In this document: positions 56,011 through 64,000 of the stretch, in pieces
Position numbering within the stretch: the first letter of the stretch is position 1
How the letters are laid out: each line of letters starts with the position of its first letter
From: Shewanella putrefaciens
Lineage (GTDB): Bacteria; Pseudomonadota; Gammaproteobacteria; Enterobacterales; Shewanellaceae
Direction of reading: 5' to 3'
Assembly: GCF_016406325.1 (NCBI RefSeq)
Contig: NZ_CP066370.1
Span: forward strand, 1,302,001-1,366,000
DNA length: 64,000 nt
Program-made: the position numbers and the translations under genes
Notes under the pieces: model-generated
The model's database searches: none
What the model was told of the DNA's origin: nothing
The model's input: only the letters and a program-made list of their open reading frames with translations

Positions 56011-56301
56011 AAGAGGCGCTCATAGGAAAATAAAGTGGCAGTTTACGGCATAGTTGGGGCGGGGTAAACCTACACGCAATAGCTTAATCTAAGGGCTAAT
56101 GCAGAATTCATTAAATTGTAACATTCCGGTTTTTAAGTTATTAATCATTGATATTAATGGTATTTAATTTTTATTGCTGACTTATTTTTCCGTGTATTCA
56201 CCTAAGTTGTCACACTTGAAATAAAACTGAAACAGATTCATTGCACACTTTCGGTCGTTCCAAACCAATAACCAAGACGAACATAACGTCGAAAGGATTA
56301 A

Positions 56302-57267
56302 ATGATGAACGTTTTTTGTAAAACTCTACTTGCTTCTGCGCTAGCTTCTACAACTCTGGCTTCAGCTTATGCCGCTGAACCACTGACTGTTTATGGTAAG
56401 TTGAATGTCACCGCTCAATCAAATGATGAGAAGGGTGATGCTACAACAACTATTCAAAGTAATGCTTCTCGTTTTGGTGTGAAGGGCGATTTTGCGCTGT
56501 CTAGCTCGCTTGAAGCTTTCTATACTGTGGAATATCAAGTTGATACTGGTAATGCATCAAGCGATAACTTTACTGCACGTAACCAATTTGTTGGTTTGAA
56601 AGGTGCTTTTGGTTCGTTCTCTGTGGGTCGTAATGATACCCTGTTGAAAATTTCTCAAGGTGATGTTGACCAATTCAACGATCTTTCTGGTGACTTAGGT
56701 AAACTATTCAAGGGTGAAGTTCGCGCAGCTCAAACGGCGACTTACCTCACGCCTTCAATGGGTGATTTTGTCTTTGGTGTGACCTATGTTGCCGAAGGAA
56801 ATGCTGTAAAAGATCAATTTGCTCAAGACGGCTTTAGTTTAGCGGCCATGTATGGCGATGCAAAGCTGAAGAAAACTCCCGTTTATGCATCTATTGCCTA
56901 TGACTCTGATGTGTCAGGATATGAGATTGTTCGTGCCACATTACAAGCTAAGTTAGCGGGTATTAAATTGGGCGGTATGTTCCAGCAACAAGAACAAACT
57001 TACAAATTAGACTCAACTAACTTACCTGTTGAAGTCTCCACAGATAGTGTTAATGGTTATCTGTTAAGCGCTGCCTATGATATTGATGCTGTGACGTTAA
57101 AAGCACAGTTCCAAGATATGGAAGACCTTGGTGATTCATGGTCAGTAGGTGCGGATTACAGCTTAGGTAAACCAACTAAACTATTCGCTTTCTACACGAA
57201 CCGTTCATTAGAAGCGTCTACAGATGATGACAAATATATAGGTGTTGGCTTAGAACACAAATTCTAA
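56302..57267 (+). CDS. Outer-membrane porin (gram-negative general porin family)
   Basis: 321 residues with a signal peptide (KTLLASALASTTLASAYA, mature start AEPLTVYGKLNVTAQS). The 16-strand porin pattern is visible: NASRFGVKGDFALSSSLEAFYTVEYQV, NQFVGLKGAFGSFSVGRNDTLLK, and the C-terminal strand ending YIGVGLEHKF with the terminal Phe required for BAM recognition. It sits upstream of phoBR and pstS, so it may supply phosphate or other anions, though no good Pho box was found before it. Its translation start region (AAAGGA, four bases, ATGATGAACG at 56292-56311) matches the complement of the three predicted sRNAs at 60.8-63.5 kb. Confidence 0.9.
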   Translation: MMNVFCKTLLASALASTTLASAYAAEPLTVYGKLNVTAQSNDEKGDATTTIQSNASRFGVKGDFALSSSLEAFYTVEYQVDTGNASSDNFTARNQFVGLKGAFGSFSVGRNDTLLKISQGDVDQFNDLSGDLGKLFKGEVRAAQTATYLTPSMGDFVFGVTYVAEGNAVKDQFAQDGFSLAAMYGDAKLKKTPVYASIAYDSDVSGYEIVRATLQAKLAGIKLGGMFQQQEQTYKLDSTNLPVEVSTDSVNGYLLSAAYDIDAVTLKAQFQDMEDLGDSWSVGADYSLGKPTKLFAFYTNRSLEASTDDDKYIGVGLEHKF

Positions 57268-57403: not shown

Positions 57404-57453
57404 AAAAATGACTAATAATAGTCGTGTTGACATTCACTGACAGAAAATCACTT

Positions 57454-59747: not shown

Positions 59748-60719
59748 ATGAAACTGAAAAAGCTTGTCGGCGCGATGACTCTTACTGCCGCTGGTGTATT
59801 CTCTGCCACTGCCATGGCATCGATTGATCAATCTCTGCCTACTTATGAGAAAACAAGTGGCGTATCAGGCAATCTATCATCTGCAGGTTCGGATACTTTA
59901 GCCAATATGATGACATTATGGGCTGAAGAATTTAAGCACATGTACCCTAACGTTAATATCCAAATTCAAGCCGCAGGTTCTTCTACAGCGCCACCAGCGT
60001 TGACAGAAGGGACTTCACAGTTCGGTCCTATGAGCCGCAAGATGAAGCCCAACGAAATTGAAGCGTTTGAAAAGCATTATGGTTATAAGCCTACAGAAAT
60101 TCGCGTAGCAATTGATGCTTTAGCTGTGTTTGTACATAAAGACAACCCAATTAAAGGTCTAACTGCAGAGCAAGTTGATGGTATTTTCTCCTCTACGCAC
60201 AAATGTGGTGGCAGTGATATCCAACGTTGGGGTGATTTAGGCCTTGACGGTAACTGGTCAGCAAAAGATGTTCAACTCTACGGCCGTAACTCAGTATCTG
60301 GTACTTATGGTTATTTTAAAGAACATGCTCTTTGTAAAGGTGATTTCAAAGCCAACGTGAATGAGCAACCCGGTTCTGCTTCGGTAGTGCAATCAGTATC
60401 TCAATCACTTAATGCTGTGGGTTATTCTGGAATTGGCTATGTTACAGCAGGTGTAAAAGCTGTGCCTATTGCCAAGAAAGGCAATGAATTTATCGAAGCG
60501 ACACCTGAAAATGCGGCTAACGGTACTTACCCATTATCACGTTACCTATATGTTTACGTGAACAAACAACCAAACAAAGATTTAGCGCCAATGGAAAAAG
60601 AATTCATCCGTTACGTGCTGTCTAAGCAAGGTCAGCAAGTGGTAGAGAAAGACGGTTATGTCACTTTGCCCAAAAGCGTTGTTGCTAAAGATTTAGAGCA
60701 ATTAGGTATTCGCTTGTAA
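59748..60719 (+). CDS. pstS: Periplasmic phosphate-binding protein
   Basis: 323 residues. The signal peptide [20 protein letters not shown] leads to a mature protein with [53 protein letters not shown] and [19 protein letters not shown], the phosphate-contact loops of the PstS family. The rest of the transporter (pstCAB, phoU) is absent; the gene is monocistronic between two terminators. It is directly downstream of phoBR and has a Pho box, so it should be strongly induced by phosphate starvation. Confidence 0.94.
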
Positions 60720-60738
60720 GTTAAGTCGTATCACACTT

Positions 60739-60765
60739 AAGGACCTCTTCGGAGGTCCTTTTTTA
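60739..60765 (+). terminator. Intrinsic terminator of pstS
   Basis: AAGGACCTC-TTC-GGAGGTCCTT followed by T5. Confidence 0.9.
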
Positions 60766-60808
60766 TGGGGATGCTTTGAGAGAAAGATTTAAGTACAAAC
60801 GAAGGTAT

Positions 60809-60930
60809 AAAAAAAAGCAACCTAAGTAGGTTGCTATAAATTCCAAATCGGAATACCGGGATGATCGCGCTAGAAACCATCTAAAGGAGAATGATGATGA
60901 ACGAAGAAACTCATTGCAAAGATTCGGTTC
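60809..60930 (-). ncRNA. Predicted sigma-E-dependent sRNA, unit A
   Basis: A minus-strand transcript of about 120 bases is predicted. It would start ~7 bases after the -10 box at 60937-60941, run through the complement of 60883-60903 (CGTTCATCATCATTCTCCTT), then CTAGCGC (60867-60873) and a small ATTCC/GGAAT hairpin. It ends at a perfect terminator stem AGCAACCTA / TAGGTTGCT (60816-60835) followed by eight T on the minus strand. Units B and C have the same order of elements. The CTCC/CAT stretch is complementary to ribosome-binding sites and can pair with the porin start at 56292-56311. No expression data; RNA ends are estimates. Confidence 0.68.
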
Positions 60931-60936
60931 ATAATA

Positions 60937-60963
60937 TCTGACTCAAGGTTTGAAAATTAGTTC
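60937..60963 (-). promoter_or_regulatory. Sigma-E-type promoter of unit A
   Basis: Minus strand: GAACTA, 16 bases, TCAGA, close to the RpoE consensus GGAACTT-N16-TCNRA. Same spacing as the promoters of units B and C. Confidence 0.6.
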
Positions 60964-61184
60964 ACACAAAGAGCAAAAAAATTTATATAAAAAGATTAAT
61001 ACTGCGTAATAGGTGCTTTCTACAACAGCATTTTATCAACCTCCCCCCCTTAAACGGCAAATGCCTAGAATATGCTTAGTTACAAAAATCCGATGATACA
61101 TCCTGATCATACCATTTGCGTCTGACTAAATTTGCAGTCGATAATGTGTCTTAATTGCTACAGTGAATACAGGTTATCGAGGCG
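60964..61184. other. Intergenic DNA before the M1 peptidase gene
   Basis: The remainder of the pstS to M1 peptidase gap. AT-rich, contains a CCCCCCC run near 61045-61052 and must hold the peptidase promoter; no other element was recognised. Confidence 0.5.
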
Positions 61185-63023
61185 ATGTCGATAGAATCAA
61201 CACACAGTCATTTATTTATCAATACCGATTGGGATCTGACCCGAGATTATCATTCTTTTGCCAATAGCGAACAGGTGCAAGTGACCCATGTCTCTTTGGA
61301 GCTATCGGTGGATTTTTATGCTCAGCGCCTTACGGGTAAAGCGACACTGTCATTGAACTTTGTGCAATCACATGTTGCAGAGCTTTGGCTTGATACTCGA
61401 GATTTAACCATACTTGCCGTGACAACCGTTAGTGCAGAGCCCCTTAATGTAGAGTTCCTTGATTTTGAATTCCAAGAAAACAATCCAATCCTAGGGCAAA
61501 AACTCTGTATTCGTTTACCTCGCACTCCTTGCTATCAGATTTGTATTGAATACCAAACATCCCCCAATGCACAAGGGTTGCAATGGCTAACGCCAGAACA
61601 AACCGCGGGTAAACAACAACCTTACCTCTTTAGTCAATCGCAACCCATTAATGCTCGTAGCTGGATCCCACTGCAAGATAGCCCCAAAGTGCGAATTACC
61701 TTCGACGCTAAGGTACATGTACCACTGGGGATGCGTGCTGTAATGAGTGCCATGAATCATCCAGAAACCCCATTAGAAGGCGCCTTTACATTTGAGATGG
61801 AAAAGCCCATTCCTACTCACCTAATGGCATTAGCTGTAGGAGATATAGCTTTCCAAGCAATAGGTCCAAGATGTGGCGTTTATACTGAACCCAGTATGCT
61901 TAAGGCTGCCGTTGCCGAATTTGATGATACCGAACATATGCTCGAGGTTGCTGAAGCATTACTTGGTCCCTATGTGTGGGATCGCTATGACATCATAGTG
62001 CTGCCACCGAGTTTTCCCTTTGGTGGAATGGAAAATCCAAGATTGGCGTTTTTAACGCCAACCTTGATTGCTGGGGATAAAAGTTTGGTGTCAACCGTTG
62101 CCCATGAGTTAGCCCATTCTTGGACAGGGAATTTAGTGAGCAATGCAACTTGGCGGGATCTTTGGTTAAACGAAGGTTTTACCACCTATTTTACCAATCG
62201 AATTGTCGAAGCCGTTTATGGTAAAGAACAGGCTGAATTAGAGTGGGTGATAGAGTTTGGCCGCCTAAAAGAGGAAATGACCTCGTTACCTAAATACAAA
62301 CAAACCTTACCTGCGAATGTGCAACTGGACGATCCCAATCTTGCGTTTAATCGCTTTACCTATGATAAAGCTTCCATGTTTGTTCACGAGCTAGAACATA
62401 GACTCGGAAGGATTGAGTTCGATAAATTTTTAATCAAATATGTGAGCCATTTTGCTTTTAAAGCCATCACGACCGAGGAGTTTGTCACTTATGCTCAAGC
62501 AACCATATTACAAACATATCCAGATAAAATAAGTGAAGTAGAGCTGCTTGAGTGGGTTTATGGTGAAGGCTTACCAGAATGGTATAGAGGTCCAACTTCG
62601 TCGAGTTTAGATAAAGTGGATGATGCACTGGCGTGTTTTTTACAGGGGACAGCGGCAAGTCATTTAACCGTTAAAGGTTGGCGAGTTCACCACTGGCAAT
62701 ATTTTTTGAGTCAACTACCTGAAGTTTTGACCCAAGTCCAACTGATGGATCTTGATGACACTTTTCATTTCACCCAATCTAAGAATGCAGAAATTGCCTG
62801 TGATTGGTTTAGAGTGGCAATTCGTAATCACTATGATCCAGTTTTGCCAGCTTTAAGTGCTTATTTGATACGCATTGGCCGAGGTAAATTTGTACGACCG
62901 CTTTATGCTGAACTACAAATTGCTGGATATGATACCGAATTAAAAGAAATTTATGCTAAAGCTCGTAAAGGGTATCATCCATCGATTCAAGTACAGTTGG
63001 ATAAGTCGTTAAAATGCCCATAA
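61185..63023 (+). CDS. M1-family aminopeptidase, leukotriene-A4-hydrolase-like
   Basis: 612 residues without a signal peptide, so cytoplasmic. An N-terminal beta-saddle domain is followed by the catalytic domain with the exopeptidase motif GGMENPRLAF and the zinc motif TVAHELAHSWTGNLVSN (HExxH), plus ligand Glu in LWLNEGFTTYF. A helical C-terminal domain of the LTA4H type completes it (YGEGLPEW). It removes N-terminal residues from peptides; epoxide hydrolase activity is uncertain. The gene is flanked on both sides by predicted minus-strand sRNA units and has no plus-strand terminator of its own. Confidence 0.92.
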   Translation: MSIESTHSHLFINTDWDLTRDYHSFANSEQVQVTHVSLELSVDFYAQRLTGKATLSLNFVQSHVAELWLDTRDLTILAVTTVSAEPLNVEFLDFEFQENNPILGQKLCIRLPRTPCYQICIEYQTSPNAQGLQWLTPEQTAGKQQPYLFSQSQPINARSWIPLQDSPKVRITFDAKVHVPLGMRAVMSAMNHPETPLEGAFTFEMEKPIPTHLMALAVGDIAFQAIGPRCGVYTEPSMLKAAVAEFDDTEHMLEVAEALLGPYVWDRYDIIVLPPSFPFGGMENPRLAFLTPTLIAGDKSLVSTVAHELAHSWTGNLVSNATWRDLWLNEGFTTYFTNRIVEAVYGKEQAELEWVIEFGRLKEEMTSLPKYKQTLPANVQLDDPNLAFNRFTYDKASMFVHELEHRLGRIEFDKFLIKYVSHFAFKAITTEEFVTYAQATILQTYPDKISEVELLEWVYGEGLPEWYRGPTSSSLDKVDDALACFLQGTAASHLTVKGWRVHHWQYFLSQLPEVLTQVQLMDLDDTFHFTQSKNAEIACDWFRVAIRNHYDPVLPALSAYLIRIGRGKFVRPLYAELQIAGYDTELKEIYAKARKGYHPSIQVQLDKSLKCP

Positions 63024-63032
63024 ATTTGAGAT

Positions 63033-63255
63033 AAAAAAATGGCAACCAGAGGTTGCCATAAAAAATCAGAGTAGAATACAAAAGAATTCAGTGCGCTAGC
63101 GTGTTTTCCGTTGTATCCCCAAAGGGAGATGATGATGAACGACTAACCAACCTGACTCAATGCGATAAAACAGAAACTGTATCATTTGAATGAAGCTCTT
63201 TATCTAACAAGCCCCACTACCAAGTGTGCATTTAATCTCATTTGCTAATCCTTAC
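63033..63255 (-). ncRNA. Predicted sigma-E-dependent sRNA, unit B
   Basis: Minus-strand unit related to A and C. The terminator stem ATGGCAACC / GGTTGCCAT (63039-63059) is followed by seven T on the minus strand. CTAGCGC lies at 63092-63098 and the shared CGTTCATCATCATCTCCCTT stretch at 63122-63141 in complement. TTGAGTCAGG just before it matches unit A. The best promoter is 120 bases farther out (63262-63288), giving an RNA of ~220 bases; a shorter form from an unseen nearer start, or by processing, is possible. It overlaps no coding sequence and begins ten bases beyond the M1 peptidase stop codon. Confidence 0.62.
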
Positions 63256-63261
63256 GTATAT

Positions 63262-63288
63262 TCAGAGTCATCATTTTTTGTAAAGTTC
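63262..63288 (-). promoter_or_regulatory. Sigma-E-type promoter of unit B
   Basis: Minus strand: TGAACTT, 16 bases, TCTGA. This is the best RpoE consensus match of the three. Confidence 0.65.
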
Positions 63289-63389
63289 ACTCGTTTTAGA
63301 AAAAAAGAGAAAATATTTTTTTGGATATGTTCAAGCAACCTAAATAGCAACATTTTGGGCATAGTAAAAGTGAAGTGAAGAGAAGAGAT

Positions 63390-63494
63390 AAAAAAAGGCA
63401 ACCAAACGGTCGCCTAGTGACCTACTCCTAGGTCAAGGGGCTGCGCTAGAAGCCCTTGGGAGAATGATGAACATGAAAAAGACATTCGCTGCTC
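63390..63494 (-). ncRNA. Predicted sigma-E-dependent sRNA, unit C
   Basis: Predicted minus-strand RNA of ~105 bases. It includes GTTCATCATTCTCCC (complement of 63459-63473), CTAGCGC in the loop of a GGGCT/AGCCCC-type hairpin (~63434-63457), a GACCTA/TAGGTC hairpin (63425-63440 region) and the terminator stem AGGCGACC / GGTTGCCT (63396-63415, one mismatch) followed by seven T. Shared elements and their order make it a paralogue of units A and B. The first ~30 bases differ from A, which may vary target range. Confidence 0.68.
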
Positions 63495-63500
63495 AATACA

Positions 63501-63527
63501 TTTGAGTGGTGCGTACGGTTAAAGTTC
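63501..63527 (-). promoter_or_regulatory. Sigma-E-type promoter of unit C
   Basis: Minus strand: TGAACTT, 16 bases, TCAAA, nearly the full RpoE consensus, placed ~25-30 bases ahead of the conserved pairing stretch. Confidence 0.66.
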
Positions 63528-63592
63528 AATTTTATATTAAAAAAATTAATTTATTTTTTTAACTGAATATTTTCAGATGGATAGACAATAAA

Positions 63593-64000
63593 TTATTTTA
63601 ACAGAGCGTTAATCTTACTGGTTAATGCTTCAGGTTTTGTCGTTGGCGCGAAACGTTCAATGGCTTCACCTTGACGATTAACTAAAAATTTAGTGAAGTT
63701 CCATTTGATCCCTTCAGTGCCTAAAACTCCTGGAGCGGCTTTTTTTAAATACTGATATAGAGGGTGGGTATGCTCGCCGTTCACTTCAATTTTAGAGAAC
63801 AGTGGGAAAGTCACCCCAAAATTCAATTCACAAAAATGTTGGATCCCTTCCTCATTTGCTTTTTCTTGGGCACCAAATTGATTACAAGGAAAACCGAGTA
63901 CCACAAATCCCTCATCTTGAAATTGTTTATACAGTGCTTCTAACCCTTTGTATTGAGGTGTAAATCCACACTCACTAGCGGTATTAACGATCAATAAGAC
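63593..64000 (-). CDS. Glutathione peroxidase (partial, N-terminus beyond window)
   Basis: The open frame runs off the right edge; 136 codons before the stop are present of ~160 expected. VLLIVNTASECGFTPQYKGLEALY contains the peroxidatic Cys (cysteine, not selenocysteine). GFPCNQFGAQE supplies the second Cys and the Gln, and IKWNFTKFLVNRQGEAIERF the Trp and Asn of the catalytic tetrad. It is a BtuE/Gpx-type thiol peroxidase, probably thioredoxin-dependent in practice. The stop codon lies 66 bases from the sigma-E promoter of unit C, which reads in the same direction from beyond the gene. Confidence 0.93.
   Translation of the reverse strand, partial: VLLIVNTASECGFTPQYKGLEALYKQFQDEGFVVLGFPCNQFGAQEKANEEGIQHFCELNFGVTFPLFSKIEVNGEHTHPLYQYLKKAAPGVLGTEGIKWNFTKFLVNRQGEAIERFAPTTKPEALTSKINALLK

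Follow-up and report, generated by a model that had tools for sequence, protein, structure and literature searches.

Conserved sigma-E-type small RNA paralogs around an M1 peptidase gene of Shewanella as probable repressors of porin translation

Three paralogous units on the minus strand around an M1 peptidase gene of Shewanella, here called A, B, and C, are, judged from their sequence, a real family of sRNAs of a known functional kind, undescribed in the literature that we searched and with a strong candidate target. They are likely to be sigma-E-driven, trans-acting RNAs that repress the translation of porins. In the mechanism that we propose, envelope stress would lead RpoE to switch on leftward transcription of all three units. 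Each transcript would consist, in this order, of a 5′ arm, a common anti-start-codon/anti-Shine-Dalgarno (SD) core, a CTAGCGC segment, and an intrinsic terminator. Pairing of the arm and core with porin mRNAs, over the ribosome-binding site and the first codons, would block their translation. Unit C would be assigned to an Omp35-like porin and unit A to a porin encoded nearby, perhaps also to an OprD-type porin; unit B would bring the same core as A and C to bear. Because stretches of the units match porin gene starts, the family probably silences porin synthesis in cells with a damaged envelope.

The units lie in a 64,000-nt stretch of DNA (the window, whose positions are used throughout) from a Shewanella host, as its M1 peptidase matched 51 Shewanella loci with the best match in S. 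profunda. A Porin_4 porin gene (56302..57267, plus strand, from a domain search) is followed on the same strand by two ORFs at 57424 and 58223, which look like a response regulator and a sensor kinase (presumably phoB/phoR). ORF and domain searches place a PBP-like binding protein (presumably PstS) at 59748 and the M1 peptidase at 61185, both on the plus strand, and a glutathione peroxidase at 63593 on the minus strand. Unit A sits between the binding protein and the peptidase, and units B and C sit between the peptidase and the glutathione peroxidase.

A pattern scan of the window recovers in each unit the promoter, core, CTAGCGC, and intrinsic terminator that the sequence-only reading had proposed. 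The promoter form GAACTW-N16-TCNRA has just three minus-strand matches in the window, each preceding a unit, and none on the plus strand, against a chance level of 0.3 per strand (mean of 200 mononucleotide shuffles of the window). The core takes the form GTTCATCAT(CAT)(T)CTCC in all three. In unit A, the promoter (GAACTA-N16-TCAGA, 60937..60963, supported also by spacer conservation) precedes a predicted sRNA at 60809..60930, its start placed about 7 bases past the −10 box, that overlaps an A-type model match at G000:C1:1362809-1362908. The pairing core GTTCATCATCATTCTCC, anti-start codon plus anti-SD, occupies 60886..60902 (pattern match and duplex prediction), the CTAGCGC box 60867..60873 in a hairpin loop, and the terminator 60809..60835, its stem beginning at 60835; covariation supports both the box hairpin and the terminator. 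Unit B has its promoter (GAACTT-N16-TCTGA) at 63262..63288, a predicted sRNA at 63033..63255 (B-type model match G000:C1:1365033-1365144), the core GTTCATCATCATCTCC at 63125..63140, the box at 63093..63099, and a terminator from the terminator scan at 63033..63059, with its stem from 63059. For unit C, the corresponding parts are the promoter (GAACTT-N16-TCAAA) at 63501..63527, the predicted sRNA at 63390..63494 (C-type model match G000:C1:1365390-1365500), a target arm at 63470..63487, the core GTTCATCATTCTCC at 63459..63472, the box in a covarying hairpin loop at 63443..63449, and the terminator at 63390..63415, its stem beginning at 63415 and likewise covarying. One further proposal fell away: TTGAGTCAG had been named as a common element, but it is placed differently in A and B. 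The copy in A (60946-60938) shares bases with the −10 box, the one in B (63160-63152) sits about 95 bases into the predicted transcript and is variable among relatives, and a search of unit C found no exact copy.

The covariance-model search that the sequence-only reading had suggested was carried out, and the family proved to be conserved across the genus. With the C-type model, every one of 129 Shewanella genomes gives a match (E up to 0.001); at most 40 of them may be species in its training set. At the same threshold, the A-type and B-type models each match 112 of the 129; several weak A-model matches fall on B- or C-type units, and because the models cross-match, these two counts measure the family and not the type. 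By hand count, the best E is 1e-6 or lower in 92 genomes for the B model and in 83 for the A model. A search of 394 genomes of the order with the C-type model (E up to 0.01) matched 30 of the same genus and 6 others, where about 3.6 matches would be expected by chance among the 364 genomes of other genera. These six weak matches were rejected as relatives; each has a hairpin with a T tail but lacks TTCATCA and the promoter form in the roughly 500 bases considered.

The alignments point to a conserved RNA fold. In the C-type alignment of 40 sequences, the fold consists of two hairpins, the first of them with CTAGCGC, and the terminator; 98.8 percent of cells pair, 6 of 17 pairs show change on both sides, and 50 cells are changed on both sides versus 15.2 in shuffles. 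The A-type alignment (25 distinct sequences) gives 99.0 percent of cells pairing, both-side change in 5 of 12 pairs, and 22 cells changed on both sides versus 6.3; for both types the structure was derived from the same alignment on which the changes were counted. The number of further pair types is no higher than in shuffles for either (18 versus 16.8 for C-type, 10 versus 10.4 for A-type). The parts common to B-type units are mainly the core, box, and terminator.

Porin repression had earlier been proposed by analogy alone, and complementarity of arm and core to porin starts now supports it directly. The clearest case is unit C, whose arm is perfectly complementary, over 18 nt, to the start of an Omp35-like porin gene (G000:C1:759822). 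In the predicted duplex, 18 contiguous Watson-Crick pairs begin three bases upstream of the start codon and end in codon 5, and CUCCC/GGGAG pairs in addition. At −43.2 kcal/mol (z −5.4), this start ranks first among 361 start regions, the second scoring −33.0; the 361 were picked by a heuristic from the window and fetched pieces, not from the whole genome, ATGATGAAC and TGCGCTAG are overrepresented in those pieces, and the RNAduplex scores leave accessibility out of account. An Omp35 relative is present in 126 of 129 Shewanella genomes (E 1e-40). Among the 30 best-scoring of these, a choice that favors close relatives, the contiguous match between the C arm and its complement in Omp35 reaches 18–19 nt in 10 genomes, 11–12 in 3, and 5–8 in 17, and the shuffle z is −2.4 or weaker in 8, with 0.0 in one of those. 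Arm and porin start nonetheless appear to vary together. Across 13 distinct arms, the pairing of each arm with its own porin averages −24.3, and that of permuted pairs −23.0 (sd 0.56; p 0.0085). For the full set of 30 genomes the values are −28.7 and −26.1, and none of 20000 permutations is as low, with the clade of the window giving the largest share and related arms being non-independent. In S. oneidensis, Omp35 is described as apparently post-transcriptionally regulated (PMC2659441, citing Maier and Myers 2004), and SO_3896 (OmpS38) is described as a major porin (PMC4585640).

For unit A, and for the cores of B and C, the predicted site is at the window porin gene (56292..56311, plus strand), where it takes in the AAAGGA SD and the start AUGAUGAACG. 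The core region of A pairs over the SD and start codon (AAAGGAUUAAAUGAUGAACG) at −24.1 kcal/mol. When short core regions were compared against 60 start regions of the window, this porin came first for A at that energy, first for C (−17.0), and third for B. With long arms and the 361 start regions, it lies outside the 8 best for A and B, other starts score better, and no porin stands out as a target of either; unit B has no convincing specific target in that set. Full-length RNAduplex runs of the units were uninformative for targets. Pairing in silico to the start region of an outer-membrane protein (OMP) is found, then, for A and C, that of C being short in the 17 genomes noted above. The core is complementary to window-porin orthologs in the 18 loci examined, at varying strength, and the S. 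frigidimarina group has the weaker values for unit A (−15.9 to −18.9). All 20 porin starts that were read keep ATGATGAAY. The first porin codons (56302-56328) are nearly identical in DNA even among orthologs that are about 65 percent identical in protein, which suggests a constraint at the RNA level.

Looking beyond the window, the complement of the core, ATGATGAAC, occurs 86 times in the genome. Nine of these occurrences look like starts of genes of 50 codons or more, 7 of the 9 with an SD-like stretch, and they include the window porin and an OprD-type porin. The start of the latter, AAGGAAAAUGAUGAUGAAC (loci L143 and L250, G000:C1:3785226), shows by eye a 19-nt match to unit A with one mismatch, and RNAduplex gives −25.0 for the pair. 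As a genus-wide target the OprD-type porin was rejected, since it is present in 16 of 60 genomes and its start is not always ATGATGAA.

A more elaborate form of the proposal would treat the units as a modular porin-silencing cluster in which the shared core reads OMP SD and start sequences, a 5′ arm particular to each paralog selects the porin, dosage depends on tandem amplification, and the loop with CTAGCGC makes a second contact, with GCGCTAGC. We put this forward only tentatively. The GCGCTAGC codons do occur in porin signal peptides, namely those of the window porin, the Omp35-like porin, and 17 of 30 Omp35 orthologs. A second contact between the loop and these codons stays a conjecture because the order of the sites is ill-suited to one continuous duplex, and as a general second site it stays so because 13 of the 30 orthologs lack GCGCTAGC near the start and TGCGCTAG occurs 133 times in the genome versus 89 for the reversed pattern. 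An alternative accepts real sRNAs with a sigma-E-type promoter but takes the main partners of the conserved core to be other mRNAs or a protein, and supposes that the window's clade acquired the long porin match of C. The 8 or fewer contiguous pairs in 17 of 30 genomes, set beside a C-type unit in every Shewanella genome, would fit such an account, but the joint variation of 13 distinct arms with the Omp35 start and the complementary match, of varying strength, between the core and the window porin in the 18 loci examined speak against it, and we consider it unlikely.

A core regex gave 116 matches in 49 of 51 Shewanella loci, every one on the minus strand, and these are accompanied by a terminator in 111 cases, CTAGCGC in 98, and the promoter in 105. 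All three units are present in the laboratory strain Shewanella sp. ANA-3 (L044). The promoter lies directly upstream with a spacer of 16 bases in 105 of the 116 units and 17 in 3, and spacers of 12–15, 18, or 19 bases do not occur. Of the 199 occurrences of the promoter pattern in these loci, 105 precede a core; another 88 are on the minus strand and the remaining 6 on the plus strand. At least 72 of the 88 have CTAGCGC no more than 260 bases downstream, so that most of the 88 are further units with a core diverging from the regex. The fixed spacing, together with conservation across the genus and covarying helices, favors the earlier description of the units as paralogous sRNAs with a sigma-E-type promoter.

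From this promoter consensus we infer that RpoE controls A, B, and C. A protein search finds rpoE in the genome, and the region upstream of it (L283, G000:C1 near 1188534) contains, read by eye, GAACTT-N16-TCTACA, which the regex, requiring A at its last position, does not match and which looks like an autoregulated sigma-E promoter. A different ECF sigma factor, for example RpoE2, could instead drive the same sRNAs, or RpoE could do so only in part. Both rpoE and rpoE2 are described for Shewanella (PMC7352654), and the genome has further ECF-like matches below the RpoE cut-off, but the region upstream of rpoE bears the same GAACTT-N16-TCT arrangement as the units, and we regard this option as quite improbable. 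The transcripts may also use Hfq, whose gene exists in S. oneidensis (PMC3575234); the one relevant feature in the units is the T tail.

A joint rule of promoter, core-like seed, and CTAGCGC, applied to the 51 loci, yields 161 units on the minus strand and none on the plus strand, and a reversed-sequence control with a slightly narrower seed rule yields none. This strand bias, the presence of promoters and T-tailed terminators on the minus strand with no such promoter on the plus strand of the window, and three plus-strand frames of only 4, 13, and 15 codons that appear unrelated make it scarcely credible that the units are really plus-strand genes for small proteins or leader peptides and that the minus-strand reading is spurious, even though the core read on the plus strand gives an SD and then ATGATGAAC; such ORFs were rejected. 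By the joint rule a locus has up to 6 units, and 5 loci have none. Two loci (L272 of genome G034 and L273 of G088) hold tandem arrays of six near-identical B-type units with one promoter each; each genome has 8 B-model matches, and in the stretches read, the 6 promoters lie 358–400 bases apart beyond the C unit. In those tandem units that were printed, the core continues into CATTCCC. An extra type of unit, with core GGTTCATCACCTCCC and CTAGCGC, is seen downstream of the M1 gene in L009, L011-L014, L016, L032, L045, and L051, and the A-type units of the S. frigidimarina/subflava group retain the core and have no CTAGCGC. A-type units also show a conserved AUGAAC near the 5′ end of the sRNA (e.g. 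window 60930-60900), complementary to GUUCAU in the core. That the core can pair in this way counts against the proposed mechanism, but AUGAAC may act as an internal lock on the core, to be released by a chaperone or a target. Motifs of the forms TGAAC, TGAGC, or GTA[AG]C, which loosely resemble it, are present at the 5′ side in 131 of the 161 units.

MicA and RybB of enterobacteria are sigma-E dependent, and their seeds sit at the 5′ end of the sRNA. The cores of units A, B, and C, unlike those seeds, lie about 22 to 115 bases into the predicted transcripts. In proposed role the units resemble MicA and RybB, which are described as antisense sRNAs regulating outer-membrane proteins (PMC2659441). 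VrrA of Vibrio cholerae works alike (PMC2628432); it is described as one gene, whereas the Shewanella units form a family of neighboring paralogs. At the gathering level, Rfam has no match in the whole window, MicA and RybB families included, and at E up to 5 only five weak matches (E 0.15–4) appear in 60700-63600, with MicA and RybB absent. Titles and abstracts in the literature, with most subscription journals outside the coverage, gave no description of the Shewanella family. For Shewanella piezotolerans WP3, 209 in-silico sRNA candidates from UTRs of orthologous genes have been reported (PMC5471319), and because of that origin the units could be among them. The words “porin,” “sigma,” “copies,” and “peroxidase” do not occur in the main text of that paper; an earlier bare prediction of these units within it is possible.

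The form of this family is unusual: sRNA paralogs of the sigma-E type are clustered on one strand, tandem arrays occur, and a target arm changes together with a porin start. With MicA and RybB described as not found in S. oneidensis, porin sRNAs of the sigma-E type had been reported missing from that well-studied species (PMC2659441). The family now supplies a candidate regulator of Omp35 with a testable 18-bp site.
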